A stretch of 64,000 nucleotides of DNA from Vreelandella zhanjiangensis DSM 21076. Lineage in GTDB: Bacteria; Pseudomonadota; Gammaproteobacteria; Pseudomonadales; Halomonadaceae. Location of the stretch: positions 124,001 through 188,000 of the forward strand of contig NZ_KB898650.1 of NCBI RefSeq assembly GCF_000377665.1. The letters are read 5' to 3'. Shown piece after piece: positions 385 to 28,311 of the stretch (its first letter is position 1; each line of letters begins with the position of its first letter). The notes beneath the pieces are model-generated. The model was not told the DNA's origin, searched no databases, and worked only from the letters and a program-made list of their open reading frames with translations. The translations under genes were made by a program, and so were the position numbers.

Positions 385-819
385 TCACGTGTCGGCTGTC
401 TGGCGGGTAGACCGAAGGCCGCCGTGAAAGGTAACGGCCACACCGGCCAGAATCAGTGCAATCCCCGAGAGCTTCAGCCAGGAAAAGTGCTCGGCGATAC
501 CCGGCAGAAACAGCGAGCCGATATAGACCAGCACATAGCTCAGACTCAAGAACGGATAGGCCATGCTCAGCGGTATCCTCTTGAGCGCCATCACCCAGCA
601 CAGCATCGACAGGGCGTAGCAGCCAAGCCCGGCCACTACCGATACAAGAGAGGGCCAGCCGTGGCGCAGGATCGCGTCATACGTACCCGTATCAGCCAGG
701 TTCAAGCCATCCAGTGCAAGCGTGCTCATGCCCCACTTCATGGCAAGCTGGGCCACCGATACCAAGCAGACGCTGATCAATACGAGCGCAATGCTGCCTG
801 CTCTTCGTTGTCTGTTCAT
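385..819 (-). CDS. arnF: ArnF-like flippase subunit (EmrE-type)
   Basis: A 144-residue, four-helix small membrane protein of the EmrE superfamily. ArnE and ArnF together are thought to flip undecaprenyl-phosphate-aminoarabinose across the inner membrane for ArnT. The family signature is visible in the MALKRIPLSMAYPFLSLSYV stretch, where the YP motif sits in the helix that binds substrate in EmrE relatives. The ATG at 819 overlaps the TGA of the upstream arnE (ATGA), which fixes the start and indicates coupled translation. A longer open frame extends to 1062 but runs through arnE in another frame and is not the gene. Confidence 0.85.
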   Translation of the reverse strand: MNRQRRAGSIALVLISVCLVSVAQLAMKWGMSTLALDGLNLADTGTYDAILRHGWPSLVSVVAGLGCYALSMLCWVMALKRIPLSMAYPFLSLSYVLVYIGSLFLPGIAEHFSWLKLSGIALILAGVAVTFHGGLRSTRQTADT

Positions 820-1169
820 GTTGCAGACACCGCCACCAGTAAAATCCCCAGCCCGATAAGTGCGCAGCCAGACCAGTGGTGAAGCGACACCGGTTCGCCA
901 AAGCTGAAGCGTGAGATCAACAGCATGATGATCAGGTTGAGACTCAGCATCGGATAGGCCACCGACACGCTCCAGTCCCGCAGCACGTAAAGCCAGGCGA
1001 TGGCACTCAGCAGCAGAAAGAAGATTGCCAGCATCAGCGGCTGACAGACCATCTTTCTCCATAGCGAATGGTCAGGGTAGCGGGCAAAATGAAGCGCCGA
1101 CCGCTTTTGCCAGTAATGGCTGCATGCGCTTGCGAGCAGCGAAATACTGAAGACAACGGTGGTATTCAA
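816..1169 (-). CDS. arnE: ArnE-like flippase subunit (EmrE-type)
   Basis: A 117-residue small membrane protein with four predicted helices, the probable partner of ArnF in flipping undecaprenyl-phosphate-aminoarabinose. The SVAYPMLSLNLIIMLL segment resembles the YP-containing helix of its partner. The start is a TTG at 1169 that overlaps the stop of arnT (TTGA) with AGGAAA a few bases upstream; no ATG would give a complete first helix. The order arnT-arnE-arnF is the same as in enterobacteria (arnE/F = pmrL/M), which supports the assignment of two otherwise poorly conserved proteins. Confidence 0.82.
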   Translation of the reverse strand: MNTTVVFSISLLASACSHYWQKRSALHFARYPDHSLWRKMVCQPLMLAIFFLLLSAIAWLYVLRDWSVSVAYPMLSLNLIIMLLISRFSFGEPVSLHHWSGCALIGLGILLVAVSAT

Positions 1170-2818
1170 GAGGTTTTCCTATCGAAAAACAGTACTTTGT
1201 AAGGTCCTAGCTCGATGATTCGATCATGCGGGGGAAGCGACTTTTCAAACGTGGTTGATGTACGAAACTCGACTGCGATAGCGTGGTGTTGGCGCTGTTC
1301 GAGGATAAAGGCGCCGAGCGCTGCGTATTCAATGAACCGGTGTTGAGCTTCGGCATAACCCAGGCCGTAGGACACCTCGCCCTTTTGTCCCAGCAAGTAC
1401 ACATCGTCTCTTCTCAGATACCAGTTAAACGCCGACATGATAGTGGGATAGTCCGCCACCAGAACCGTGTCCTCGTCTACATGGGGGGCCACTTTCTCGA
1501 TGAGCCACTGGGGCTGTTTGGCATCGGTCACGTGATCCGGAAGAGCAAAGCCAATGACCGTAAACAAGGCGACCGGTGCCAGCATATGCCCTACGAAAAA
1601 CGCCCCTATGTGAGTGCATCGGCCGGCCAGAACGATAAAGCCGCTCCAAAGAAGCATCGACGCTACCAACAATCCAAGCTTGTAGCCTTCGCCTGGACCA
1701 AAGGGCAAAAAGCCCAGTGAAAAGGCGACAAGCGCGGCCAGTGCAATGGCCATCATCAGGCCAGCATGCATGAGGCAAAGACGTCTTAACGTCTTTTTCT
1801 TATGCTCAAAGGCCCAGATCAAGCCATGGGTTATCAAGATGGCCAACGGCGCCATGCACGGCAGGATATAGGTGGCAAGCTTGCCCCGTGACAGCGAGAA
1901 AAAGAGGAAGGGCAACACCGCCCATAGCAGCGTATAGCGCACCGCGGGTAGCGCCAACGAGGCACGCAGATGGCGAAAAGCCGGTAGCGTCAGAAACGTC
2001 CAGGGCATCAGTGCCAGCAGCATGACCGGCACGAAGAACCACGTCGGAGAGACATGCTGGGCCTCGTCCGAGAAGAACCGATGAATATGCTCGACCCAGA
2101 AGAAATAGTGCCAGAAGTCCGGCGCGCGCAGGTGCACGGCAATCGCCCAGGGGAGCGTGACGGTGAGCGCACTCGCCACGCTGAGCCAGCCATACACCAT
2201 CAATTGCCTGAACTGGCGCTGCACGATGGCGTGAACCACGACCACCATGAAGGGCAATACCAGTGCCAGAAATCCCTTGGTCAAGAAGGCGCCGCCGCAG
2301 CCCACGCCGGCCAGCAGATAGAAAAGACAGCGCTGGCGCCGGGCAGTGGCCTCCAAGGCCATATAAAACGCCACAAAGGTGAGCGTCAGCCAGAAGGTCA
2401 GGAAACTGTCGAGCACACTGAAGGTGCCAACCGCAATCACGATGAAAAAGCTCAGATAGACGCCTACCGACAGGTACGCTTGCGTTCTGCCAAATACGCG
2501 CCGCACCATGAACATGATGCACAGCGCACTCCCCATGACGGAAAGCGCCGACATGAACCTGACCGCGAAATTGGTCTGGCCGAATATCATCTGAGCGATA
2601 GCATTAAGCCAGTAGCCCATGATCGGTTTTTCAAAATAGAAAAGCCCGTTGAAGTGCGGCACAACCCAATCACCGGTGGCCAGGAGTTCTCGCGATATCT
2701 CGCCGTAGCGCAGCTCATCAGGAGACCACAGGGCCGGCACATGAAGCGTCAACAGGTACGTCAACACGAAGTAGCTTATTATCAGCGCCCAACCGGCCTG
2801 CTTTAGTAGCCTGTTCAT
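1166..2818 (-). CDS. arnT: Lipid A 4-amino-4-deoxy-L-arabinosyltransferase ArnT
   Basis: A 550-residue inner-membrane GT83 enzyme that moves L-Ara4N from its undecaprenyl-phosphate carrier to lipid A phosphates, lowering the negative charge of LPS and giving resistance to polymyxins and cationic peptides. The first periplasmic loop holds SPDELRYGEISRELL and FNGLFYFEKPIMGYW, which are the ArnT signatures; the rest is a run of about a dozen hydrophobic helices with a soluble C-terminal domain, at the family's usual length of about 550. ATG at 2818 lies 3 bases after arnD. It is embedded in arnBCADTEF order. Confidence 0.93.
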   Translation of the reverse strand: MNRLLKQAGWALIISYFVLTYLLTLHVPALWSPDELRYGEISRELLATGDWVVPHFNGLFYFEKPIMGYWLNAIAQMIFGQTNFAVRFMSALSVMGSALCIMFMVRRVFGRTQAYLSVGVYLSFFIVIAVGTFSVLDSFLTFWLTLTFVAFYMALEATARRQRCLFYLLAGVGCGGAFLTKGFLALVLPFMVVVVHAIVQRQFRQLMVYGWLSVASALTVTLPWAIAVHLRAPDFWHYFFWVEHIHRFFSDEAQHVSPTWFFVPVMLLALMPWTFLTLPAFRHLRASLALPAVRYTLLWAVLPFLFFSLSRGKLATYILPCMAPLAILITHGLIWAFEHKKKTLRRLCLMHAGLMMAIALAALVAFSLGFLPFGPGEGYKLGLLVASMLLWSGFIVLAGRCTHIGAFFVGHMLAPVALFTVIGFALPDHVTDAKQPQWLIEKVAPHVDEDTVLVADYPTIMSAFNWYLRRDDVYLLGQKGEVSYGLGYAEAQHRFIEYAALGAFILEQRQHHAIAVEFRTSTTFEKSLPPHDRIIELGPYKVLFFDRKTS

Positions 2819-2820
2819 GT

Positions 2821-3732
2821 TTACCTGCCCCTCAAAGAGAGGGAAGACTGGCGGGCAACCCAGCCTTCACGGCCGGGTATCTCGACTGACTCTATCGTGC
2901 CCGTGGGAAGACGCTCATTATCGTGGGGCAGCAGCGCCCCTAGCGGGACAAACTTGATATGACGCTCGGCGGCCATCATCAGGAATTTCTCGAACATGAC
3001 CGCGCAGGCGATGCCTTCGGCCTCAGCGTGAATCGTATAAACGTTCAGCCCGTTCGGGTCGATGGCGTCAAGAATGTGCTGGTTGTAATTCTCGTCGGTG
3101 ATGCCGTTTTGGCCGATCACTTCGTCATAGGTCGGCAGGGTGACGGGGATCTGGGGCGTCCTTTTGCCCTTCGGCATGAAGATGGCATCGCCCCGGCAAT
3201 CACTGTTATAGCGAAAGGCAAACGTCTCCTTTTGGGCAAGCGTTGCCGGGTTGCAGCGCCAGCCCGCGACGGCGCTGCAACTCACGCGTTCACCCAACAG
3301 CATCTCAAGACGCCGATAGCCCCGCTCAATCTCTCGGTGCAGCTCGTCGGCTGACATCGTATCGATCCGGGTCTGCCACTTGTGATGATCCCAGGCATGC
3401 AGGCCGATTTCGTGTTGCTGGTAATGGGCCTGCTGAATCAGATGACCAAGCTTCTGGCCAATATCCGGTCCAGGCCAGGGCAGCGTCCCCTTGAACAGGA
3501 TGTCGTAGCCGTAGAGGTTTTTGGCATTGGAGCGCAGCATCTTTTTGAAAAAGGCCGGGCGCAACAACCGCCACAGATGGCGCCCCATGTTGTCGGGGCC
3601 CACGGTAAAGAAAAAGGAGGCGGTAATGTCATGACGCGCCAGTATATCCAGCAGCCGGGGAACGCCCTTCAGGGTGCCTCGGTAAGTATCCACGTCGATA
3701 CGCAGGCCTACCGGTATAGGTTGCTTAACCAT
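2821..3732 (-). CDS. arnD: ArnD, undecaprenyl-phosphate formamido-arabinose deformylase
   Basis: A polysaccharide-deacetylase (NodB-fold) enzyme of 303 residues that removes the formyl group from undecaprenyl-phosphate-L-Ara4FN. The N-terminal [12 protein letters not shown] carries the first metal aspartate region, [14 protein letters not shown] holds the metal-binding histidines, and AGWRCN is the arginine motif seen in ArnD. I chose the ATG at 3732, which overlaps the last codons of arnA by 8 bases; an ATG at 3756 would add eight residues that do not look like ArnD. Confidence 0.9.
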
Positions 3733-5713
3733 GAGCTTGTTCTTCCAGTGCTTCATTCAGAAAGAAATCCAGTGTTTGCTCAATGGTTTTCTCGAAATGG
3801 GTGGACGGTTCCCAGTCCAGGATCTTCTTTGCATTGCGAATGCAGGGCTGGCGATGCTGAACGTCTTGATAACCATCGCCATAATAGGCGCTGCTCTCCA
3901 TGAGGTTGTAGCCGGCAAAGGGCGGGAACTGATCACGCAGTGGATGACGTTCAAAGCGTGATACCAGGCTTTCGGCCAGCTCCTTGATACTGGCTTCATT
4001 GTCCGGCGCGCCAATATTGATGATCTGACCATCGCAGGCACCGTCGGTATTTTCCACGATGCGAAAGAGCGCCTCGATGGCGTCTGATATATCGGTAAAA
4101 CAGCGTTTTTGCTCACCGCCATCAATCAGGTTGATGGGGGTTCCTTCCACCAGATTGAGGATGAGCTGCGTGATGGCGCGACTGGAGCCGATCCGGGCAG
4201 AACTCAGGTTATCCAGATGGGTACCCATCCAGTTGAAGGGACGAAACAGGGTGAATTTCAGCCCTTCCTTGATGCCATAGGCCCAGATCACGCGATCCAG
4301 CAGCTGCTTTGACACCGAATAGATCCAGCGCTGGCGATTGATGGGCCCCACGATCAGCGGCGAGGTGTCTTCATCAAAGGCTTCATCGGTGCACATGCCG
4401 TACACCTCGGACGTCGAGGGGAAGATGACCCGTTTTTTGTACTTCACACAGCTGCGCACAATTTTAAGGTTTTCTTCGAAATCGAGCTCAAACACCCGCA
4501 GCGGATTGCGCGTGTATTCAATCGGCGTGGCGATGGCCACCAGTGGCAGCACCACATCGCACTTCTTGATCTGATACTCGATCCATTCGTTATGAATGGT
4601 GATATCCCCTTCCACGAAGTGGAAATTGGGATGGGGCAGGAACTCCGCAATCTGACTGGCGCTGACGTCCATGGCGTACACGGAGTACTTGTCTTCCTTG
4701 AGTAAACGCCGCGTCAGGTGAGTGCCGATGAAGCCGTTGGCCCCCAGGATCAGTACCCGGGTACGTTTCTTCTTGACCAGCAGGCTACGGGCAGACGGCC
4801 CAAAGCGCATGCCAACCGCCAGATGGAGTTCAGCGGCCAACCGTTCGCCACCCAGATAAAGCCCCTGCTCGCTCTGCCCGGTGTCCACGATCAGTGATCC
4901 CTGGCCACAGGCAATCGTCAATGGTGAAAGCGAGACAATGGTGCCGGGCTTCACGTCGTAATGCTGCTGACTGGGCCTCGCCTTCCAGATCGTGATCTTG
5001 CGCTCACCCATGAAGGTAAACGCTCCCGGATAGGGTTCGGTCACCGCACGCACCAGGTTGAAAAGCGCACGCGCATCACGCGACCAGTCAAGCTCGCCAT
5101 CTTCAGGCGTGCGCCGCGGGAAGGTGCTGGCTTTTGTTTCATCCTGCGCTACCGGTACCAGCCGGTGGTTGATCAATGCCGGCAGCGCCTCACCCAGCAT
5201 CTCGCGGGCCAGCACGACCATGCGCTTGTGCAGCGTGGCCGCGTCATCGCCGTCGCTGATGGGCAAACTTTTTTGATAAAGGATGTCGCCGGCATCGGCT
5301 CGGCGGGTCATGCGATGCAGCGTCAGCCCCGCTTCCTGCTCGTCATTGACCAGCGCCCAGTTGATCGGTGCGCGCCCACGATAGGCTGGCAGCAGTGAGC
5401 CGTGCAGGTTGAACCCGCCGTGGCGGGCAATATCGAGTATTTCCTGACAGATCAGGTGGCGATAGTAAAAGGAGAAGATGATGTCCGGCTGCATCATGCG
5501 GATCTTGTCGATCCAGATGGGATGATTGACGTTTTCCGGCGCATGCACGGGGATGCCGTGCTGAGCGGCCAGCTTGGCCACCGAGGCAAAAAAGACATTT
5601 TCCCGGGCGTCGTCCACGTGGGTGAAAATCGCTTCGACCTCGATACCGCTGTCCAGCACACTCTGGAGGCCTACACAGCCGAAATTGTGGTACGCAAAAA
5701 TGATGGCTTTCAT
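3725..5713 (-). CDS. arnA: ArnA, bifunctional formyltransferase / UDP-glucuronate decarboxylase
   Basis: A 662-residue cytoplasmic fusion, the usual ArnA length. Residues ~1-300 are a formyltransferase: [16 protein letters not shown] gives N102 and H104 and ADAGDI gives D140, the same numbering as the catalytic triad of E. coli ArnA. Residues ~315-660 are an SDR-type oxidative decarboxylase: [10 protein letters not shown] binds NAD+, PSTSEVYG supplies the catalytic Ser/Glu region, and YSVSK is the YxxxK motif. The protein makes UDP-Ara4-keto from UDP-GlcA and formylates UDP-L-Ara4N. Its ends overlap or abut arnC and arnD, as expected in this operon. Confidence 0.95.
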
Positions 5714-5725
5714 ATTGTGTCTTCT

Positions 5726-6736
5726 TCAATGCGCCGTCTGGCGGGTTGTTTCTTTTACAGGGTCGTGAGGCCGGCCATGCACGGCCTTGCCGATCATCAG
5801 GTCCTGAACGAAAAAGCGGGGTCTGGCACGCACGTCGGAATAAATCCGGCCGATGTATTCGCCCAGCAGTCCCAGGCCAATAAATTGCGCACCGATCAAA
5901 ACGAAGAGAATGGCGAAAAGGGTAAAGAGGCCATCGCCGGCCCACTCTGCTCCCAACATCAGTCGCAGGGCCATCAACAAGACACCGAACACCACGCCAA
6001 ACACGGCCATGGCGCTACCCAGAAGGCTAAGCATGCGAAGCGGTGCGGTGGTCATGCTGGTCAGCAGATCAAACATCAAACTGATCAGCTTCATGGGGCT
6101 GTACTTCGAATTGCCGTCGGCACGCTCGTCGTGGTGAACGTCAATTTCGGTGGTATGGCGCGAGAAGTTGTTGGCCAGAATGGGGATAAAGGTGCTTCGT
6201 TCGTGGCAGTTGAGCATGGCGTTGACCACATGGCGGCGATAGGCGCGCAGCATGCAGCCGTAGTCACTCATGGCCACACCGGTGGCCAGCTTGACCGCCC
6301 GATTCACCAGTTTTGAAGGCAGCCGGCGCAGGATATTGTCCTGGCGCTTCTTGCGCACCGTGCCCACCGAGTCATAGCCCTCCTCGATTTTCGCCACCAG
6401 ACGGGGGATCTCTTCAGGCGGGTTTTGCAGATCAGCATCCAGGGTAATGACAACGTCGCCGCGGGTCTGCTCAAAACCCGCGATGATGGCGTTGTGCTGG
6501 CCGTAATTGCGATTGAGGATGACCCCGATAATGCGGCTGTCCTGCTCGGCCGACATCTTCTCGATAATGGCGGCGCTGCGATCCTGGCTGCCGTCATCGA
6601 CCAGTATCAGCTCATAGGGCTGACTGAGGGTCTGGCAGGCCATCGTGGTGCGCCGGACCAGCTCGGGGAGGGTCATCTCCTCGTTGAATACCGGGATGAC
6701 AATGGAGACGAGTTTGATGGGCTGGTTATTTTTCAT
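5726..6736 (-). CDS. arnC: ArnC, undecaprenyl-phosphate Ara4FN transferase (GT2)
   Basis: A 336-residue GT2 enzyme that transfers formylated L-Ara4N from UDP to undecaprenyl phosphate at the cytoplasmic face. The Rossmann-like N-terminus begins [10 protein letters not shown], followed by [12 protein letters not shown] and the [12 protein letters not shown] motif (DXD for UDP/metal binding). Two C-terminal transmembrane helices (about residues 235-300) anchor it. It overlaps the end of arnB by 11 bases and is 13 bases from arnA, so the three are translated as a unit. Confidence 0.93.
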
Positions 6737-7907
6737 GTTGATTCACTATCGTGTTTAACGCGTCAATCACGCGGTCGATATCACCCAACGTCATGGCAGG
6801 AAACAGCGGCAGCGAACAGATCTGCCCCCCGGCCAGGGTCGTATGGGGCAATGAAGGCATGTCCCGTGCATAACGGGCGGTGTAATGGTCGCGGTAATAT
6901 TTCTGCAGATGCGCCGGCATGAAATGAATGCCGGCACCAATCTGTACGGCCTTGAGTGCCTCAATCAGCTGCTGGCGATCAAGCCCTGCACGCTCAGGCG
7001 CCACCCGCACCACCATCAGATGTCGGCAATGCCTGTGCTCATGCACGGGGTCCTGAAGCGGTGTGATGCCGGGGATAGCCCTTAATTTCTCGATATAGTC
7101 ATCGGCGAGCGCCTGGCGTGCGGCGGTAATCGCATCGAGCCTTTCAAGCTGGCCCAGCGCCAGAACGGCGCTGATATCGGGAAGGTTGTATTTGAATCCG
7201 GGTTCCACCACTTCTGCCTGCGGGGCGCGACCATGGGTTTCACGGTCAAAGGCGTCCACGGCCAGCCCATGAAATTTCAGACGCCGAATCCTGTCGGCCA
7301 GCGCCTGATCGGACGTCACGAATAGCCCGCCCTCCGCCGTCGTGACGTTTTTGATCGCGTGAAGGGAAAAGATGCAGTGCCCCCGATACCCGACCGGTTG
7401 CCCCTTGTACTGCGCCCCCAGCGCATGGGCAGCGTCTTCGATAACAGCAATGCCATGGCGCTCGGCTAGCGCATAAATCGGGTCCAGATCCAGTGAGGCG
7501 CCCGCGAAATGCACCGGGATGATCAGTCGGGTTTTCGGCGTCACCAGCGGTGCAATCTGCTCGGCCGTGGTCATCAGCGTGTCAGGATCGACATCCACGA
7601 ACACCGGCGTGGCACCCACCAGGGTGATCATGTTGATGGTGGAAACCCAGGTCAGGGAAGGCGTGATGACTTCATCACCCGGCCCAATCCCCAGCGCCAG
7701 CAGTGCCAGATGCATGCCGGCGGTGGCACTGCTGAGCGCGACGGCTTCAGTGGCCCCGGTCAGTTGACAGATCATCTGCTCAAGCTGGGCATTTTTGGCG
7801 CCGGTCGTGATCCAGCCGGAGCGAAGCACTGCGACCACAGCATCAATATCGGCGTCATTCAGGGCAGGCCGACACAGGGGTAAAAAGGTGTTTTGCATGG
7901 AAGGCAT
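6726..7907 (-). CDS. arnB: ArnB, UDP-Ara4-keto aminotransferase (PLP)
   Basis: First gene of the arn operon; 393 residues, DegT/DnrJ/EryC1 family. It transaminates UDP-Ara4-keto to UDP-L-Ara4N using glutamate. [12 protein letters not shown] carries the PLP lysine (K186) and [11 protein letters not shown] the aspartate that contacts the pyridine nitrogen. The ATG at 7907 has no strong ribosome site; a second ATG at 7898 is possible. About 350 bases upstream contain a hairpin and the shared regulatory element at 8121-8157. Confidence 0.94.
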
Positions 7908-21373: not shown

Positions 21374-22417
21374 TCACCATTCTCGCGAGCTTTCCCGCGT
21401 AAACCCCTGCAACACATTGACTACGTTGACACCTATTTCATCAACCGCATAGCCCCCTTCCATTAAAAAGATCGTGGGCAGGCCAGCTTCTGCCAAACGT
21501 TGGCCCAGGGCAATAAAGTCTTCGCTCTTGAAAGTGAACGCGCTGATCGGGTCACCTTCAAAAATATCCACGCCTAGCGAGACAATCAAAAGCTCACACT
21601 CATGCGTTTTAATGGCCGCTAGCGCCTGCTCCAAACGCTGCATCCACTCGGCTACGCTGGTGCCCGGCGCCATGGGATAGTTAAGATTGAAGCCCTCCCC
21701 CTCGCCTGCCCCCGTTTCGTCGGCGTAGCCCAGGTAGTAGGGAAAGGTTACGTCAGGGTCGCCGTGCAGTGAGGCAAACAGCACATCGTTGCGTGAGTAG
21801 AAAATTTGCTGCGTACCGTTACCGTGATGAAAATCCACATCCAGCACTGCCACGCGGCGCTTGCCGGCATTCAGCGCGTGCTGGGCCGCTACGGCCGCAT
21901 TATTAAAAAAGCAGTAACCGCCAAACTGATCAAAAGCGGCGTGATGCCCTGGCGGCCGACACAGCGCAAAGCTGGGCTCCTGGGTTTCAAGCGTATGCGA
22001 TATGGCGCCTAACGCGGCATCCTTGCTTCCCATGGCAGCATCAAAAGTGCCTTCAGAAATCGAGGTTTCCGCCGCCAGGGCATAATAGCCCAGCTGTCCG
22101 CTAATCGAGCGGGGAATGTGATCGCCGCGCATGGACCGGGCAGGCCAGATATTGGGTATCGCTTCCCCCTGATGACCGGCAGCCTGCCACGCTTGCCAGC
22201 AGGTTTCCAGAAAGCTTACGTAGCCCGCATCGTGAACGGCGCGTACCGGCTCAAGGCCATAGGCATCGGGGTTACGCACTTCAAAGCCAGCCTGACGAAT
22301 ATGCTTAAGCACCAGATCAATACGCTCGGGGCATTCGAAGGGGCTGACAAGCGCCCCGTCATGAAGCTCCGTACGCGCCTGGCGCAAACGACTATCTTCA
22401 GAGAAAAACGTAAGCAT
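21374..22417 (-). CDS. Histone deacetylase-family amidohydrolase (class II HDAC-like)
   Basis: A 347-residue zinc amidohydrolase. RPPGHHA supplies the catalytic H158-H159 pair; VLDVDFHHGNGTQQIFY holds zinc ligands D195 and H197; GVDIFEGDP carries the third ligand aspartate; and EGGYAVDEIG is the C-terminal glycine-rich motif. Bacterial relatives deacetylate polyamines, acetoin-type substrates or lysine side chains, so the exact substrate is open. Length fits the family. Confidence 0.9.
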   Translation of the reverse strand: MLTFFSEDSRLRQARTELHDGALVSPFECPERIDLVLKHIRQAGFEVRNPDAYGLEPVRAVHDAGYVSFLETCWQAWQAAGHQGEAIPNIWPARSMRGDHIPRSISGQLGYYALAAETSISEGTFDAAMGSKDAALGAISHTLETQEPSFALCRPPGHHAAFDQFGGYCFFNNAAVAAQHALNAGKRRVAVLDVDFHHGNGTQQIFYSRNDVLFASLHGDPDVTFPYYLGYADETGAGEGEGFNLNYPMAPGTSVAEWMQRLEQALAAIKTHECELLIVSLGVDIFEGDPISAFTFKSEDFIALGQRLAEAGLPTIFLMEGGYAVDEIGVNVVNVLQGFTRESSREW

Positions 22418-22783: not shown

Positions 22784-25700
22784 TTAACGGGATAGATTGA
22801 TAATAAACGCTTCAAGCGCCTCTATTGGCATCGGCTTGGCCAATACGTAGCCCTGGAATATATCGCACTGATAGCTCAAAAGGCGCTGATACTGCTCTTC
22901 GGTTTCCACGCCTTCAGCCACCACTTTAAGCCCCAGGTGGTGCGCCATGGAGATAATCCCCTGCACAATCGCTGAATCATCTTCGCTATTGGTCAGCTCA
23001 TGAATGAAACTGCGGTCAATTTTCACCGTACTGATGGGCAGATGCTTAAGATAACTCAGGCTTGAATAGCCCGTTCCAAAGTCATCAATAGAAACCCCTA
23101 TGTGCATGCTACGCAGCGCATGCAGCGTATCGATCGCGCCTTCGGTGTTATCCATCAGGATGCCTTCGGTCAGCTCCAGGCTTAACTGTTCGGCAGGCAG
23201 GCCGGTGGTTAACAGGGTTTGACGCAGCGTGGCGAGAAAGCTTGAACGCTGAAACTGCAACGGCGAGAGGTTAACCGCGACGCGTATTTCACCCAACCCC
23301 TGCTTAGCCAATGACTGCATATCCAGGCAGGCGCGCTGGAGTACCCATTCGCTGATTGGAATAATCTGGCCAGTCGTTTCAGCCAAAGGAATAAAGCGAG
23401 CCGGAGAAATAAAGCCTTTTTCAGGGTGCTCCCAGCGCAGCAGCGCTTCAACGCCCTCAAGTTTGCCTTCCCGATCCAGCAACGGCTGATAGTGCAGTGA
23501 GAACTCTTCACGCTCAATGGCTTCTTGAAGATCGTTCCGCAATACCATGCGCTCGCTGACCGTATCGGTAAACGCGTGCATATACCATTCGTAAGCGTTA
23601 CGCCCCTGCTGTTTGGCCTTGTACATCGCCATATCAGCTTGCTGAATCAGCGTTTGCGGCTGGAGCGTATCCTCCTGGCTAATAGCAATACCGATACTCG
23701 CGGTCAGATAAAGCTCATGCGGCTCAATACGATAAGGACGCGCCAACATCGGCAACAGCCGCTCAACCAAGTCGACGACTTCAGATTCATAGTCGATCAA
23801 CGTTTGTAAAATAACGAACTCATCACCGCCCATTCGGGCAACGGTATCATCGGGTCCCACTGCGCTGGAAAGTCGCCGGGCAACCTCAACGAGTACCTGA
23901 TCGCCCACCGCATGCCCCAGGTTGTCGTTAATCGGTTTGAAGTCATCCAAATCCACAAACAGTACGGCCAGTCGCTTTTTATGTTGGCGCAGAAGCGAGA
24001 ACTGTTTAAACAACGTCTCTTCAAAAAGCATCCGGTTGGGCAGACGGGTCAAATCGTCGTGGGAGGCGTGATAGGCCAGCCGCGCTTCGTAGGCTTTATG
24101 TTTGGAAATATCATGCTGCACGCCGACAAAGTGCGTTACGCGACCATCCTGATCGCGCACCGGCGCAATATATAGATCGTTCCAGAATGGCGTGCCATCC
24201 TTACGGTAGTTGCATATCGTCACATTGACTTCACGGTGCTCTTCAATACAGCTATGAATATGCTGAATAACCTCAGGCTCGCTTCCCACCCCCTGAAGGA
24301 AACGGCAGTTCTTGCCGATGATTTCTTCCTGGCTATACCCCGTCATCACAGTAAACGCATTGTTGGCATAAATGATGGGCAAATCAGGCTGTTCGGCGTC
24401 GGCGATTAAAATGCCATTGACGCTGGCCTCCACGCTGCGTTCTAGCGTCCGCAGCCGAGACTCCTGTTCACGCGCGGCGGTCACTTCCTGGGCAATCGCG
24501 TGTACGCCTTTGACAGTATTATTCACCATCATGGGCAGGTGGATAATATCCAGTAAATGGAGATGGCCCGCGCGATCCTTGAGCGTCAATTCATAGCGGT
24601 TTATCCCGCCCTGCATGGCCGTTTCAATGTAGGCCTCAACCCGCACACTATCCTGCGCATCAATAAAGAAGGTGAACGGCTTACCCAGTATTTCCTCAAC
24701 CGAATAGCCGGTTAATGAGGCACAGGTAGCATTAGCCGTGACAAAACAGCCGTTCGCATCCAGGGTAAATACTGCATCAGGGTGATGGGTAAACAACGAG
24801 CGGTAACGCTGTTCGCTCTCCTCCAGAGAGCGCCGCACCTGGAAACGCTCAACGGCCAGCGCCATCAGGCCAGCGGCTTTATCGATTTGCGCCGTATCGG
24901 CACCGCTTGGCGTACTGGGTTGTGGATAATAAACCGCAATAGTGCCCGTTAGCTGGCCATCTCCACCGTACACGGGACTCGACCAGCAAGATGCCAGCCC
25001 CGCTTTTTTGGCAACGCCATGATAGCCACGCCAGCGCTCGTCCTCGGCAATATTGGCGCATATAACGGTTCTTCCCTGGTAGGCCGCGCTACCACATGCG
25101 CCGTTATTAGCGCTGATCAAAATGCGCTGTATCGCGCTGCGGTACGCCGCGGGCAGTCGGTCACCCGCGGCGAATTCCAGATGGGTGCCCGCCTCATTAA
25201 CCAGCATGACCGAACACATCGCCTGGGGCAGTTCGCGCTCAAGCATTCGGCATAGGCTTTCCAACGTTTCCTTTAGCGGCTGTTCCTGGGCGATCATGCG
25301 CTGAATTGCCTGTTGGTCTTCCAGCGACTGCCGCGTCTGGGCAAGCTCGCGGGCACGCGAAACGCTGACACTCACGACGCCAAGGCTGAATGCCAGCAAA
25401 CCGCTAAGCAGCAGACTGCCTAACGCCACCGCAAACGACAGCAGGTTTAGCTGATGCCAGTTGTACTGGCTCCCAGGATAGGCATAAAGCTCCATGTTTA
25501 TGCCGCCGGGCAAGCCGATATAACGAGATGCCAGCGCAAGCTCAGGCGTTTCCATGCGGTCGGCGGAGAAGCCTGCGGGGTGTAGTTTCATCAGTGATGT
25601 GGCATCACGATTGACCCTAACCTGGAAAGGTCCGACTTCCAGGCGCAGCTCGTTTTCCAGGAGGGTAGCAAGATCAAAGCTTGCAAACAGGTAATGGCCG

Positions 25701-26755
25701 TTGGCGACAATGGGAATAACAAACATGGCCTCATGGGGTCGGCTGGTGTCTGCCATTAATAGCCGTGGACGCTCCAGAGGAATCTGCATCCAGGCACGCG
25801 TATATTCCTCGTCCAGCTGCTGACGTAACCATTGCTCCATTTCAGCCGTTCGGCCTACTCCCCAGCTCCAGGTAAGCGCTTGCTGATCCACCAGCGCAAT
25901 GGCGCTAATACTCGGCGTATCACGCAGATAATTTTGCGCATCGCTTTCCAGCAGGTCCAAATCCCAGCGCGGCCCCATCGCATTTAAGCGTTCGGCCATA
26001 CGCTGCATCAGGCGCAAGCGATCCTGGGTTGCCCGCTCAATATTGAGCTGAACGTTATCCAATAGATAGGCAGCCTGCTGTTGCAGCGAGGCTTGTTGAT
26101 AGCTATTCAGCAGAAGCCAGATAAAACAACTTATCGTAACGCCCCACAGCGAGGCAGCGACAGTCACCCGCCCGGGGTTTAAGCGTTGCGCCTTGCCGCG
26201 TAAACCGGCAGCCAGCATGGCGGTGCCTAAAAAGCATGTAAACACCAGCGCCGTCATGGGCGAGGATGCAAACAGCGGAGAAGCATCGTTTAGCCCAAGC
26301 CATAATTTTCCCACCACAAACAGGCCAAGCCCCCATAGGCTCAGCCCACCAGCCACCCATAACCAGCGCCGCCAGGAGGTGGTAAGCCCCAGCCCAAAGC
26401 ACACCCCGACCAAGAGAAGAAAGATCGCTGACAAGCTGGTAATACGCGGCCCAGCGCTTAGCCATGAGTCGCCACTACCGCCTTCTAGACTGTTATGTAT
26501 TAAGGTATAAATGATGATTAACAGCAGTGCGAAAGCGCTGACGACCCGGGCTTTCGTCCAGCCTTGTAGCGACGCCAGTAGCGCAATGCCGACCAAAAGA
26601 GTGATCAACGCTCCGTCGGGCACCAACGTGGCAAAAAATGGTCGCGTAGGTATGCTGATGCCCACCACCACCCCAACCGCTCCCATACAAATCAGGGTTG
26701 CTGATATCATCAGCAAAAGGGTTTCCAGCGCTAAATGGCGTGTGTTAATCGGCAT
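22784..26755 (-). CDS. Membrane GAF-PAS-LOV-GGDEF-EAL c-di-GMP enzyme
   Basis: A 1323-residue protein. About eight hydrophobic segments within residues 10-215, a periplasmic sensory stretch ~220-435, another helix ~437-465, a GAF domain ~480-640, a PAS domain ~646-765, a second PAS ~773-885, GGDEF (intact at 976-980) and EAL (at 1103-1105, with DDFGTGYSS and EGVETEEQ, so the phosphodiesterase site is complete). The second PAS carries GKNCRFLQG with cysteine C817, preceded by a PIIYANNAF strand and followed by NYRKDGTPFWND and FVGVQHD: these are the flavin-contact residues of LOV photosensors. No RxxD inhibitory site precedes GGDEF. Predicted: light- and ligand-controlled c-di-GMP turnover. 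Confidence 0.92.
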   Translation of the reverse strand: MPINTRHLALETLLLMISATLICMGAVGVVVGISIPTRPFFATLVPDGALITLLVGIALLASLQGWTKARVVSAFALLLIIIYTLIHNSLEGGSGDSWLSAGPRITSLSAIFLLLVGVCFGLGLTTSWRRWLWVAGGLSLWGLGLFVVGKLWLGLNDASPLFASSPMTALVFTCFLGTAMLAAGLRGKAQRLNPGRVTVAASLWGVTISCFIWLLLNSYQQASLQQQAAYLLDNVQLNIERATQDRLRLMQRMAERLNAMGPRWDLDLLESDAQNYLRDTPSISAIALVDQQALTWSWGVGRTAEMEQWLRQQLDEEYTRAWMQIPLERPRLLMADTSRPHEAMFVIPIVANGHYLFASFDLATLLENELRLEVGPFQVRVNRDATSLMKLHPAGFSADRMETPELALASRYIGLPGGINMELYAYPGSQYNWHQLNLLSFAVALGSLLLSGLLAFSLGVVSVSVSRARELAQTRQSLEDQQAIQRMIAQEQPLKETLESLCRMLERELPQAMCSVMLVNEAGTHLEFAAGDRLPAAYRSAIQRILISANNGACGSAAYQGRTVICANIAEDERWRGYHGVAKKAGLASCWSSPVYGGDGQLTGTIAVYYPQPSTPSGADTAQIDKAAGLMALAVERFQVRRSLEESEQRYRSLFTHHPDAVFTLDANGCFVTANATCASLTGYSVEEILGKPFTFFIDAQDSVRVEAYIETAMQGGINRYELTLKDRAGHLHLLDIIHLPMMVNNTVKGVHAIAQEVTAAREQESRLRTLERSVEASVNGILIADAEQPDLPIIYANNAFTVMTGYSQEEIIGKNCRFLQGVGSEPEVIQHIHSCIEEHREVNVTICNYRKDGTPFWNDLYIAPVRDQDGRVTHFVGVQHDISKHKAYEARLAYHASHDDLTRLPNRMLFEETLFKQFSLLRQHKKRLAVLFVDLDDFKPINDNLGHAVGDQVLVEVARRLSSAVGPDDTVARMGGDEFVILQTLIDYESEVVDLVERLLPMLARPYRIEPHELYLTASIGIAISQEDTLQPQTLIQQADMAMYKAKQQGRNAYEWYMHAFTDTVSERMVLRNDLQEAIEREEFSLHYQPLLDREGKLEGVEALLRWEHPEKGFISPARFIPLAETTGQIIPISEWVLQRACLDMQSLAKQGLGEIRVAVNLSPLQFQRSSFLATLRQTLLTTGLPAEQLSLELTEGILMDNTEGAIDTLHALRSMHIGVSIDDFGTGYSSLSYLKHLPISTVKIDRSFIHELTNSEDDSAIVQGIISMAHHLGLKVVAEGVETEEQYQRLLSYQCDIFQGYVLAKPMPIEALEAFIINLSR

Positions 26756-26792: not shown

Positions 26793-27782
26793 TTACCGTT
26801 CGAAGTGTACTCGCTCTATGAGCGGTACCAGCTCATGAAATTGCTCATCTAAATAACCACCATAAGTACCAAGCGTCCGGTAATCGATTAATGAGCCATA
26901 CTCATGCGTAATTCGGTAGCGCAATGGTGCACTAGCAAGTGCATACGCTAACGCATCGGCTAAAGTAGCAAGCGTTTGTGGCGGCGTGCCCACGGGTGCA
27001 AAGATGCCTCGGTCGGTGGTATGCACCAGATCGATTCCCTGCTCACGAAGCGTTAAGACGTCAGGTAGCCCAGGCAGCCGTTCGCTTCCCGCCACGGCCA
27101 ATGGCACCAAGGCACCCGAGGCAAAAAGAGCGCCCGCCGAAGGCAGATTAAGCATGGCAAAATCAATTTCCTGAGCCAATAAGGCTTCTACCTGAGAGGG
27201 GGTATCAGGAAAACGAACCAGCTGTATATCTGAAAGAGAGATATCGTTCTTGTCAAAAAACTCCAGCCAGAAAAGATGATCGGTGGAGTTAGTGATGGCG
27301 CCGAACATGAGGGGTTTTGAAGAAGCATTGATTAACGCTTCAATATCGCTAGCTTGTTGGGCCGCATGCCCTGCATAGGTAGCGGGAATATTCACCGTGC
27401 GAACCAGCAACGACACGGGTGCAAAATCAGCATGAGAAAATGACGCTAGCCCTGCCAGGTACGAAAGGTCGATCGTTTGATGACTACCGAGCAGCGTATA
27501 ACCATCGGGCGCGGCATCTTTGACATACTGCGCGCCACGCATAGCGCCCTGGCCGGGCATATTAACCACAAGAACAGGCTGGCCTAGATAGGTTTGCGCC
27601 GTTTCAAAGATATCCCGAAACAGCACATCGGACGCCCCTCCCAGACCAAAGGGAATCACTAACGTAATTTCGCGCTGCGGGTAGTGTTCGTCGGCAACGG
27701 CCCCCGCCATGATCAGTAGAAAAATGCCTAACAGGCTAGTTTTAAAGCAATAACGCACTACTTCCCTGCAACTATACGCCAT
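26793..27782 (-). CDS. TctC/Bug-type periplasmic solute-binding protein
   Basis: A 329-residue secreted protein with an N-terminal signal region (to about residue 31, ending AGAVADEHYP) and the family hallmarks ITLVIPFGLGGASDVLFRD, NMPGQGAMRGAQYV and PDGYTLL. Such proteins bind carboxylates for tripartite tricarboxylate transporters, but no TctA/TctB membrane genes are nearby. It ends 37 bases before the GGDEF/EAL gene on the same strand, so it probably acts as a periplasmic sensor for it, as known for some orphan Bug proteins beside signalling proteins. GGGAG precedes the ATG. Confidence 0.85.
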   Translation of the reverse strand: MAYSCREVVRYCFKTSLLGIFLLIMAGAVADEHYPQREITLVIPFGLGGASDVLFRDIFETAQTYLGQPVLVVNMPGQGAMRGAQYVKDAAPDGYTLLGSHQTIDLSYLAGLASFSHADFAPVSLLVRTVNIPATYAGHAAQQASDIEALINASSKPLMFGAITNSTDHLFWLEFFDKNDISLSDIQLVRFPDTPSQVEALLAQEIDFAMLNLPSAGALFASGALVPLAVAGSERLPGLPDVLTLREQGIDLVHTTDRGIFAPVGTPPQTLATLADALAYALASAPLRYRITHEYGSLIDYRTLGTYGGYLDEQFHELVPLIERVHFER

Positions 27783-27819: not shown

Positions 27820-28311
27820 CTACTCTTTGCAACATAGCTTTAATTTTCGGCCGCTACCACAAAAGCAGGGATCATTACGGCGCGGCTTGAGACGCATCAC
27901 GTCCGGCGTACCGTCCACGTACCACCAGCGATCCTGTTCAAACACAAAGCGTGAATTCTCCTCCAACCTATGCCAGCGGGCGCGCTCTTTGAAATATGCG
28001 CGAAAGTGCACATAACCAATATTGGCTTGGGGAAGCGCATCTTGAACAGTAGGCATTGCATTAATAATTGATAAACCTTTCCACTGTGTATGCAAGTCGG
28101 GCGCAAGTTCAGCAGGTCGAGTACTTACATGCCAGGTGGCTAACAGGTAATCACATAGATTGAGCGCAAAGGCACTATAGCGGGAGCGCATCAACGCTTC
28201 TGGGGTTGGGGCGGGTTCTCCACCGTGATAACGACCGCAGCATGCATCAGTCGATAGTCCTGTACCACAAGGGCAACTTTTTTCGGTTAGAGAAATCATA
28301 GAAAGGCTCAT
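27820..28311 (-). CDS. ychJ: YchJ-family SEC-C motif protein
   Basis: A 163-residue protein with two SEC-C-like zinc motifs: CPCGTGLSTDACCGRYH at the N-terminus and NDPCFCGSGRKLKLCC at the C-terminus, flanking the YchJ middle domain (LMRSRYSAFAL, WHRLEENSRFV). YchJ has no established reaction. Start taken at 28311; a second ATG at 28299 would remove four residues. It is divergent from the 28486 gene. Confidence 0.9.
   Translation of the reverse strand: MSLSMISLTEKSCPCGTGLSTDACCGRYHGGEPAPTPEALMRSRYSAFALNLCDYLLATWHVSTRPAELAPDLHTQWKGLSIINAMPTVQDALPQANIGYVHFRAYFKERARWHRLEENSRFVFEQDRWWYVDGTPDVMRLKPRRNDPCFCGSGRKLKLCCKE

Follow-up and report, generated by a model that had tools for sequence, protein, structure and literature searches.

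A LOV-bearing membrane GGDEF-EAL receptor beside an orphan TctC gene in Vreelandella zhanjiangensis: a candidate meeting point of blue light and an outside chemical signal

We analyzed a 64,000-nt stretch (hereafter, the window) of the draft genome of Vreelandella zhanjiangensis DSM 21076 (4.06 Mb, 16 contigs; window at positions 124,001–188,000 of contig NZ_KB898650.1). An initial annotation had placed a LOV photosensor at 22784-26755, inside a membrane GGDEF-EAL protein that also carries GAF, PAS and periplasmic sensor domains, and had read the whole as a blue-light-responsive switch of cyclic dimeric GMP (c-di-GMP). The coordinates are right: on the minus strand, an open reading frame with an ATG start occupies 26755 to 22784 (G000:C5:146787-150755 in the genome) and encodes 1323 amino acids, and the plus-strand frame across the same interval is full of stops. 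The architecture is likewise supported by Pfam and, for the periplasmic part, by structural models of low to middling confidence; the chain runs from membrane helices through a probable periplasmic PAS-like sensor to GAF, PAS, LOV, GGDEF and EAL. The closest named relatives are Halomonas sp. Go_Leine_bin_112 (97%, best segment), Halomonas colorata (95%), Vreelandella populi (89%), V. nanhaiensis (88%), H. citrativorans (86%), V. songnenensis (83%) and V. aquamarina (80%). The features of the locus, in window coordinates, are as follows.

22784..26755, minus: receptor gene, 1323 amino acids (open reading frame, Pfam, NCBIfam)
26102..26755, minus: residues 1-218, about 6-7 likely membrane helices (hydrophobic segments; low-confidence model)
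25451..26101, minus: residues 219-435, probable periplasmic PAS-like domain, likely of the CHASE/dCACHE class, followed by a likely helix at about 437-465 (low-to-middling-confidence models)
24848..25282, minus: GAF, residues 492-636 (Pfam GAF_2, E 1.3e-17); missing in many family members
24470..24793, minus: PAS, residues 655-762 (Pfam PAS_4)
24101..24439, minus: LOV, residues 773-885 (Pfam PAS_9 at 781-884, NCBIfam YtvA model, PDB sequence search)
24305..24307, minus: codon of the adduct cysteine C817 (translation and alignment)
24209..24211, minus: N849, presumed flavin-contact Asn (alignment)
24179..24181, minus: N859, presumed flavin-contact Asn (alignment)
24116..24118, minus: Q880, active-site Gln (alignment; role per PMC9098866)
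24050..24112, minus: linker between sensor and effector, residues 882-902, a length of 21 counted from D of DIS to L of DDLT (definition per PMC10396304)
23597..24067, minus: GGDEF, residues 897-1053, motif GGDEF at 976-980, GPDD in place of RxxD (Pfam, E 1.1e-50)
22832..23539, minus: EAL, residues 1073-1308, with E1103, N1162, E1194, D1224, D1225, K1245, E1281 and Q1301, whose catalytic roles we assume (Pfam, E 5e-78)
26793..27782, minus: gene of an orphan periplasmic binding protein of the TctC (Bug) type, separated from the receptor start by 37 bp on its upstream side
21374..22417, minus: histone-deacetylase-family gene, conserved downstream neighbor (synteny marker; no functional link claimed)
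27820..28311, minus: YchJ-like/SEC-C gene, upstream neighbor (synteny marker)

The NCBIfam model of the blue-light receptor YtvA matched residues 772-896 of the receptor (E 2.9e-47, 161 bits), under its curated cut-off of 250 bits, which is set for the whole protein. Within the same genome this model scored the receptor LOV domain at 155 bits and a further, short LOV protein at 150; its five remaining matches there, which are not LOV, reached no more than 49.5 bits. Since it also matched in eight of 14 control genomes at E <= 0.001, its threshold alone cannot part LOV from PAS, and the identity of the domain rests on bit scores and residues rather than on a threshold. A PDB search with residues 763-895 returned 150 distinct sequences at E <= 1e-5, headed by 9vf8, a histidine kinase (E 1.7e-40), and 8qi8, a phototropin (E 2.2e-34), with YtvA (2pr5, E 1.2e-31) slightly below them. 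The best 60 of the 150 include phototropins, YtvA, aureochromes, EL222 and blue-light-activated kinases; others among them are named merely histidine kinase, sensory box, PAS/PAC or diguanylate cyclase.

The LOV signature residues stand in the motifs where the initial annotation had put them: C817 in GKNCRFLQ, N849 in NYRKDG, N859 in FWND and Q880 in GVQHD. We take N849 and N859 to be flavin-contact residues. Q880 occupies the place of the active-site glutamine of LOV domains (PMC9098866; here and below, cited statements refer to excerpts of the papers). Judged by sequence, residues 773-885 are a canonical LOV domain, clearly distinct from an ordinary PAS domain and far above chance, in keeping with the LOV fingerprint noted initially. 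By analogy with two precedents of the family, SL2 and LadC, the domain would bind flavin, undergo photochemistry and let light act on c-di-GMP.

The second LOV protein of the genome (G000:C9:9702-10085; L155:2622-3119) has at most 166 amino acids and carries the motifs DCRFLQ, NYRKDG, FWNE and GVQKD. A DNA search for G-x-NCRFLQ found the motif in at least 66 of 82 genomes of the genus, and the reversed pattern in none; 66 is a lower bound, as the pattern misses NCRLLQ and DCRFLQ forms.

The initial annotation had called both catalytic motifs intact, and they are. All eight EAL active-site residues are present and are kept in 94-95 of 95 distinct aligned family sequences; 85 of the 95 keep the GGDEF motif. 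In the receptor, GPDD stands at the place of the inhibitory RxxD site, whose Arg occurs in 63 of the 95. By these residues the EAL domain should be active and the GGDEF domain may be. The nearest solved GGDEF-EAL pair is 4rnh, "Motility regulator" (E 2.6e-113), which we take to be MorA of Pseudomonas aeruginosa.

The segment that joins LOV to GGDEF is of fixed length. Measured from D of D(I/V)(T/S) to L of DxLT (PMC10396304), the linker has 21 residues in 87 of 90 distinct aligned sequences, and in the three exceptions (L121, L138, L221) the region is missing or badly aligned. A pattern search of unaligned sequences found 21 residues in 99 of 112 (the window protein being counted twice here, and once in the 95- and 90-sequence counts); the other 13, many of them fragments, had no match. 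The spacing from PAS to LOV is 24 in 81 of 81 aligned sequences. The same 21-residue linker occurs in all 28 Pseudomonas relatives (L045-L071, L087), which have no LOV domain (L050 is a short frame without most of the PAS domain) and were not used as light-sensor orthologues. Because the linker keeps its length with or without LOV, LOV and PAS would reach the enzyme in the same helical register, and by its sequence context LOV behaves as a cassette. Among LadC proteins, the 21-residue class is activated about 15-fold by light and the 35-residue class more than 10,000-fold (PMC10396304), which suggests modulation of the receptor rather than an on-off switch. The architecture behind the proposed switch stands, but calling it a switch goes beyond the evidence; given the complete EAL site and the 21-residue linker, a light-modulated phosphodiesterase is likelier.

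The N-terminal third is less familiar. Residues 1-218 hold about 6-7 hydrophobic segments, and a last likely helix at about 437-465 leads inside, according to the sequence and a model, so that residues 219-435 are probably periplasmic. No Pfam family matched residues 1-486 over its cut-off; the only two sub-cut-off matches up to E of 1, DUF6611 (E 0.011) and Invas_SpaK (E 0.4), were set aside, as was a bacteriorhodopsin fragment, the sole PDB sequence match to the N-terminal region (E 0.062), which we rejected as chance. SBP_bac_3 was not found in the receptor by Pfam (E <= 0.01 overall, E <= 1 for residues 1-486). Foldseek gave no match to the N-terminal model at E <= 0.001, and the fold class comes from a second structural aligner. 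With this aligner the low-confidence N-terminal model matched 2p7j (Z 14.7, 206 residues, 3.5 Å), 3lid (Z 14.6, 215 residues, 6.1 Å) and AHK4 (Z 13.2, 204 residues, 3.4 Å). The periplasmic domain alone, whose second lobe is of low confidence, matched 3lid (Z 12.2, 139 residues, 2.9 Å), LuxQ in complex with its binding protein LuxP (1zhh; Z 10.3, 177 residues, 3.3 Å) and the CHASE4 domain of PA2072 (Z 10.2, 179 residues, 4.1 Å). These models make a PAS-like sensor of the CHASE/dCACHE class, in which two PAS-like lobes sit on a long helix, likely, short of proof.

At E <= 1e-8, 47 of the 82 genomes examined in the genus carry this N-terminal sensor; at E <= 1e-6 it was detected in 113 of 275 genomes and seven of 24 genera of the family Halomonadaceae. 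Among 293 genomes drawn from the order it was found in nine, of which five belong to the same family and four gave partial matches only. Its profile matched nothing among 642 open frames of Pseudomonas and other loci. We had considered the receptor as the Halomonas MorA, given that its GGDEF-EAL part is closest to MorA, but dropped the idea, as the N-terminal profile has no match in those Pseudomonas and other loci.

The initial annotation had also proposed that the protein reads at least two signals other than light, which is plausible; the gene next door, which it did not mention, adds a candidate. The TctC product matches Pfam TctC (E 9.2e-27) and, in the PDB, a tripartite tricarboxylate transporter binding protein (E 7.3e-26). 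We compared 34 syntenic loci of the genus, meaning receptors that share a neighbor (24 have a TctC homologue, 32 the deacetylase-family gene). In all 24 with TctC, it precedes the receptor on the same strand; the two genes are 30-50 nt apart in 22 loci, while in L102 and L154 the frames are split. Among the matches listed (E <= 1e-60), all 23 TctC homologues of the genus at 54% identity or more adjoin a receptor of this group, and all others are at most 48% identical and located elsewhere. The genome itself holds nine TctC and eight TctA genes. Eight of the TctC genes lie 549-2669 bp from a TctA gene; the receptor-adjacent one is the only one without, and a genome-wide search for TctA found none on its contig. 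Outside the genus, TctC also adjoins three receptors of other genera (L186, L193, L196), all three without LOV. The presence of TctC beside every LOV-less receptor that has GAF and PAS (4/4 sequences) was not taken as a rule, the independent cases being too few. Searches of open-access literature listings found no TctC-family partner of a c-di-GMP enzyme.

On the other flank, the deacetylase-family gene was found within the retrieved sequence beside 32 of the 34 receptors (not L044 or L153). In one draft genome (L019:226-5484, also L150) the receptor and a downstream deacetylase-like gene form a single frame of 1753 codons, which could be a fusion or an assembly error. Elsewhere in the window, frames at 385-7907 on the minus strand resemble, on reading alone, an arn-type operon for modification of lipid A with 4-amino-4-deoxy-L-arabinose (L-Ara4N).

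We next consider how the light-sensing residues fare in relatives. Loss of the cysteine or flavin contacts in close homologues had been named initially as an outcome that would refute the reading. Among the syntenic loci there is no such erosion: the Cys, both Asn and the Gln are kept in 32 of 34, at LOV identities to this receptor between 96% and 65%. For this protein the reading thus withstands that check. Three of these 32 loci (L107, L112, L154) have the gene split elsewhere. Of the other two, L102 has a frame broken around LOV, with the LOV motif still in the DNA, and L100 has cleanly lost the whole domain. In L100 the PAS directly precedes GGDEF, with 14 residues between the D(I/V)(T/S) and HDxLT motifs, as in LOV-bearing receptors, and its genome has no G-x-NCRFLQ motif. 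A stop or frame shift interrupts the receptor gene in L102, L107, L112 and L154, which belong to genomes G053, G001, G046 and G020.

In the wider family the residues are often lost. We inferred a tree of 89 sequences by a quick method, with no root inferred and with long branches that include L100, which is sister to the window clade (Shimodaira–Hasegawa-like approximate likelihood-ratio support, 100). Fragmentary sequences were excluded, among them four that also have Gln -> Ile (L129, L131, L132, L139), and L099 was dropped as a duplicate of L043. The Gln is replaced by Ile, Leu or Val with the Cys kept in 14 of the 89, and the Cys is replaced in seven: by Ala in L189, L191 and L197 and by Pro in L198, which together form one clade that keeps the Gln and both Asn, and by Phe in L123, Trp in L126 and Tyr in L114, which also lack the Gln. 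Twelve tree sequences have no LOV, and in L133, L134 and L137 the motifs indicate an ordinary PAS in its place, not a decayed LOV. The tree requires at least 14 changes of LOV state, a count that includes L121, misread as a loss of Cys and Gln where the domain is actually absent. All its change counts (14, 6, 8 and 5) precede corrections to L121, L133, L134, L137 and L042, the last scored as lacking TctC where the locus map shows TctC 37 nt upstream. With the Cys lost in seven sequences and the Gln in 14 further ones, it would be unsafe to assume light sensing throughout the family. Gln-less LOV receptors occur in nature, one of them working as a light-regulated cyclase, and so do Cys-less ones (PMC9098866). 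By their residues, the altered relatives may be dimmed, redox-shifted or blind, and the clade of L189, L191, L197 and L198 supplies candidate flavin redox sensors derived from a light sensor.

Building on the domains, key residues, linker length, gene order and conservation found in the sequence, we infer an inner-membrane c-di-GMP enzyme that would combine an outside signal borne by TctC with blue light, the net effect being raised hydrolysis (probability roughly 0.6). Ligand-loaded TctC from the upstream gene would probably approach the periplasmic PAS-like domain; LuxQ, which belongs to the likely fold class of this domain and was solved with its binding protein LuxP, counts in favor of such docking. 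The periplasmic signal would then pass the last membrane helix into the GAF-PAS-LOV chain. Blue light would form the flavin-C817 adduct, and a rearrangement relayed by Q880 would alter the 21-residue helical linker to GGDEF-EAL. Through the helices that connect GAF, PAS, LOV and GGDEF, both inputs would bear on an output that is mainly hydrolysis. Because the EAL site is complete and the GGDEF domain is without its inhibitory site, the most likely net effect of light would be raised c-di-GMP hydrolysis, as in SL2. A fuller version holds that the orphan TctC brings a periplasmic, probably carboxylate, signal to a blue-light-gated enzyme, and that in the family the light cassette has been removed, inserted or, by loss of Cys or Gln, blinded with the 21-residue coupling unchanged; we put this forward tentatively, at somewhat less than even odds.

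Several observations weigh against this account. TctC is missing beside ten of the 34 receptors, and in four of these ten (L109, L142, L143, L144) a small PAS-like gene lies upstream on the same strand; its product clears a Pfam PAS cut-off in all but L142, where the match falls short. The syntenic L100, having no LOV, indicates that light is dispensable for the scaffold. Residue 834 is His, where 51 of 56 family sequences having both Cys and Gln carry Arg; we take the position to be equivalent to the second phosphate-binding arginine of plant LOV2. Built from eight orthologues, the AlphaFold models reach a mean pLDDT (predicted local distance difference test) of only 57.3 and 56.4, the first periplasmic lobe and its helix attaining 73-85 and the second lobe staying low. 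Truncated LOV-GGDEF pieces with this linker length gave no light-driven c-di-GMP, and one of them carried all GGDEF motifs (PMC10396304).

As an observation apart, the small PAS-like proteins encoded upstream in L109, L142, L143 and L144 have frames of 165-208 codons and a helical-looking tail.

TctC could instead be an unrelated transport or scavenging protein in a shared operon, the periplasmic sensor binding a small ligand of its own. Domains of the CHASE/dCACHE class often bind ligands directly, and the ten syntenic receptors without TctC still keep the periplasmic domain. We nevertheless think it rather unlikely, since among the matches listed the closest TctC homologues adjoin a receptor without exception (23/23), at a short and constant gap, no TctA lies on the contig when each of the remaining eight TctC genes is at most 2.7 kb from one, and the adjacency recurs in three receptors of other genera. 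On the output side, light might raise c-di-GMP, with GGDEF as the regulated domain, as in LadC. The intact and widely kept GGDEF motif (85/95) and the roughly 15-fold light activation of LadCs with this linker length (PMC10396304) speak for such an outcome; it is unlikely given that the EAL domain is complete and more strictly conserved than GGDEF, that the RxxD site used by MsLadC for its dark state (PMC12805367) is missing here (GPDD), and that the canonical LOV-GGDEF-EAL protein of a review is a light-activated phosphodiesterase (PMC8846402).

The LOV domain might also serve mainly as a flavin redox or oxygen sensor with light secondary, like the flavin PAS of RmcA, whose PASd binds FAD (flavin adenine dinucleotide) and tunes hydrolysis by redox state (PMC12540587) and has no adduct cysteine (PMC8846402). 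A Cys-free flavin pocket seems useful to this family, because the sister lineage of L189, L191, L197 and L198, of the same architecture, retains both Asn and the Gln without the Cys. Within the window lineage, on the other hand, all 32 alignable sequences keep the cysteine even as LOV identity falls to 65%, and we consider a mainly redox role improbable here. That the domain is a relic without photochemistry would fit His834 and the frequent erosion of LOV elsewhere in the family; with the remaining examined signature residues intact and conserved in the lineage, we regard it as very improbable indeed. The enzyme that joins a TctC-borne signal with blue light, and answers with raised hydrolysis, is thus the reading we prefer.

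About 18% of bacterial LOV proteins carry GGDEF or GGDEF and EAL (PMC4844311), and because LOV-GGDEF-EAL is common, the light sensor alone is unsurprising. By its sequence it is real and of an ordinary kind; the new parts are the conserved orphan TctC and the natural series of LOV states. That series, in which canonical, Gln-less and Cys-less LOV, ordinary PAS and no LOV at all sit on one scaffold with the same linker length, lets one ask directly whether the output, and the helix leading to it, are shared by light, redox and other modules. With the conserved orphan TctC gene beside it, the receptor can serve to test whether an outside chemical signal and light converge on a single c-di-GMP enzyme. 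The Halomonas/Vreelandella genus is easy to grow. A search of open-access titles and abstract openings found no paper pointing to this protein.

Compared with known systems, LOV-GGDEF-EAL is a known kind, and SL2 of Synechococcus elongatus, whose EAL domain hydrolyses c-di-GMP in blue light (PMC8846402; source cited in PMC10396304), is the closest functional model. Likened here by description only, SL2 shares with the receptor a canonical LOV directly before GGDEF-EAL and the 21-residue linker class of earlier LOV-GGDEF-EAL proteins (PMC10396304); unlike the receptor, it is given no periplasmic sensor or binding-protein partner in the excerpts of PMC8846402 and PMC10396304. The short-class LadC proteins also join LOV to GGDEF by 21 residues (PMC10396304) but have no EAL domain, and the RxxD site of MsLadC, a long-linker LadC, is absent from the receptor (PMC12805367). 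MorA (4rnh) is nearest in its solved GGDEF-EAL part; the N-terminal sensor profile of the receptor had no match among the 642 open frames of Pseudomonas and other loci.

RmcA of P. aeruginosa resembles the receptor in having a periplasmic sensor, a row of PAS domains with the last LOV-like, and then GGDEF-EAL; with its light and redox input it comes closest to the receptor in combining periplasmic, light and redox inputs (PMC8846402, PMC12540587). Unlike RmcA, which carries SBP_bac_3 and lacks the cysteine, the receptor has the cysteine, a probable PAS-like periplasmic domain and a separately encoded binding protein. The pairing of a periplasmic binding protein with a membrane receptor recalls NspS-MbaA (PMC9993111, PMC9602780) and BctC-BctE (PMC9602780). 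BctC, of the TctC family, acts on the sensor kinase BctE, and c-di-GMP enzymes are targets of other binding proteins (PMC9602780); BctE itself is a histidine kinase rather than a c-di-GMP enzyme, and NspS-MbaA senses polyamines, with no light input mentioned in the excerpt of PMC9993111. By gene order, the receptor is encoded with a dedicated periplasmic binding-protein gene, as in systems of the NspS-MbaA kind.

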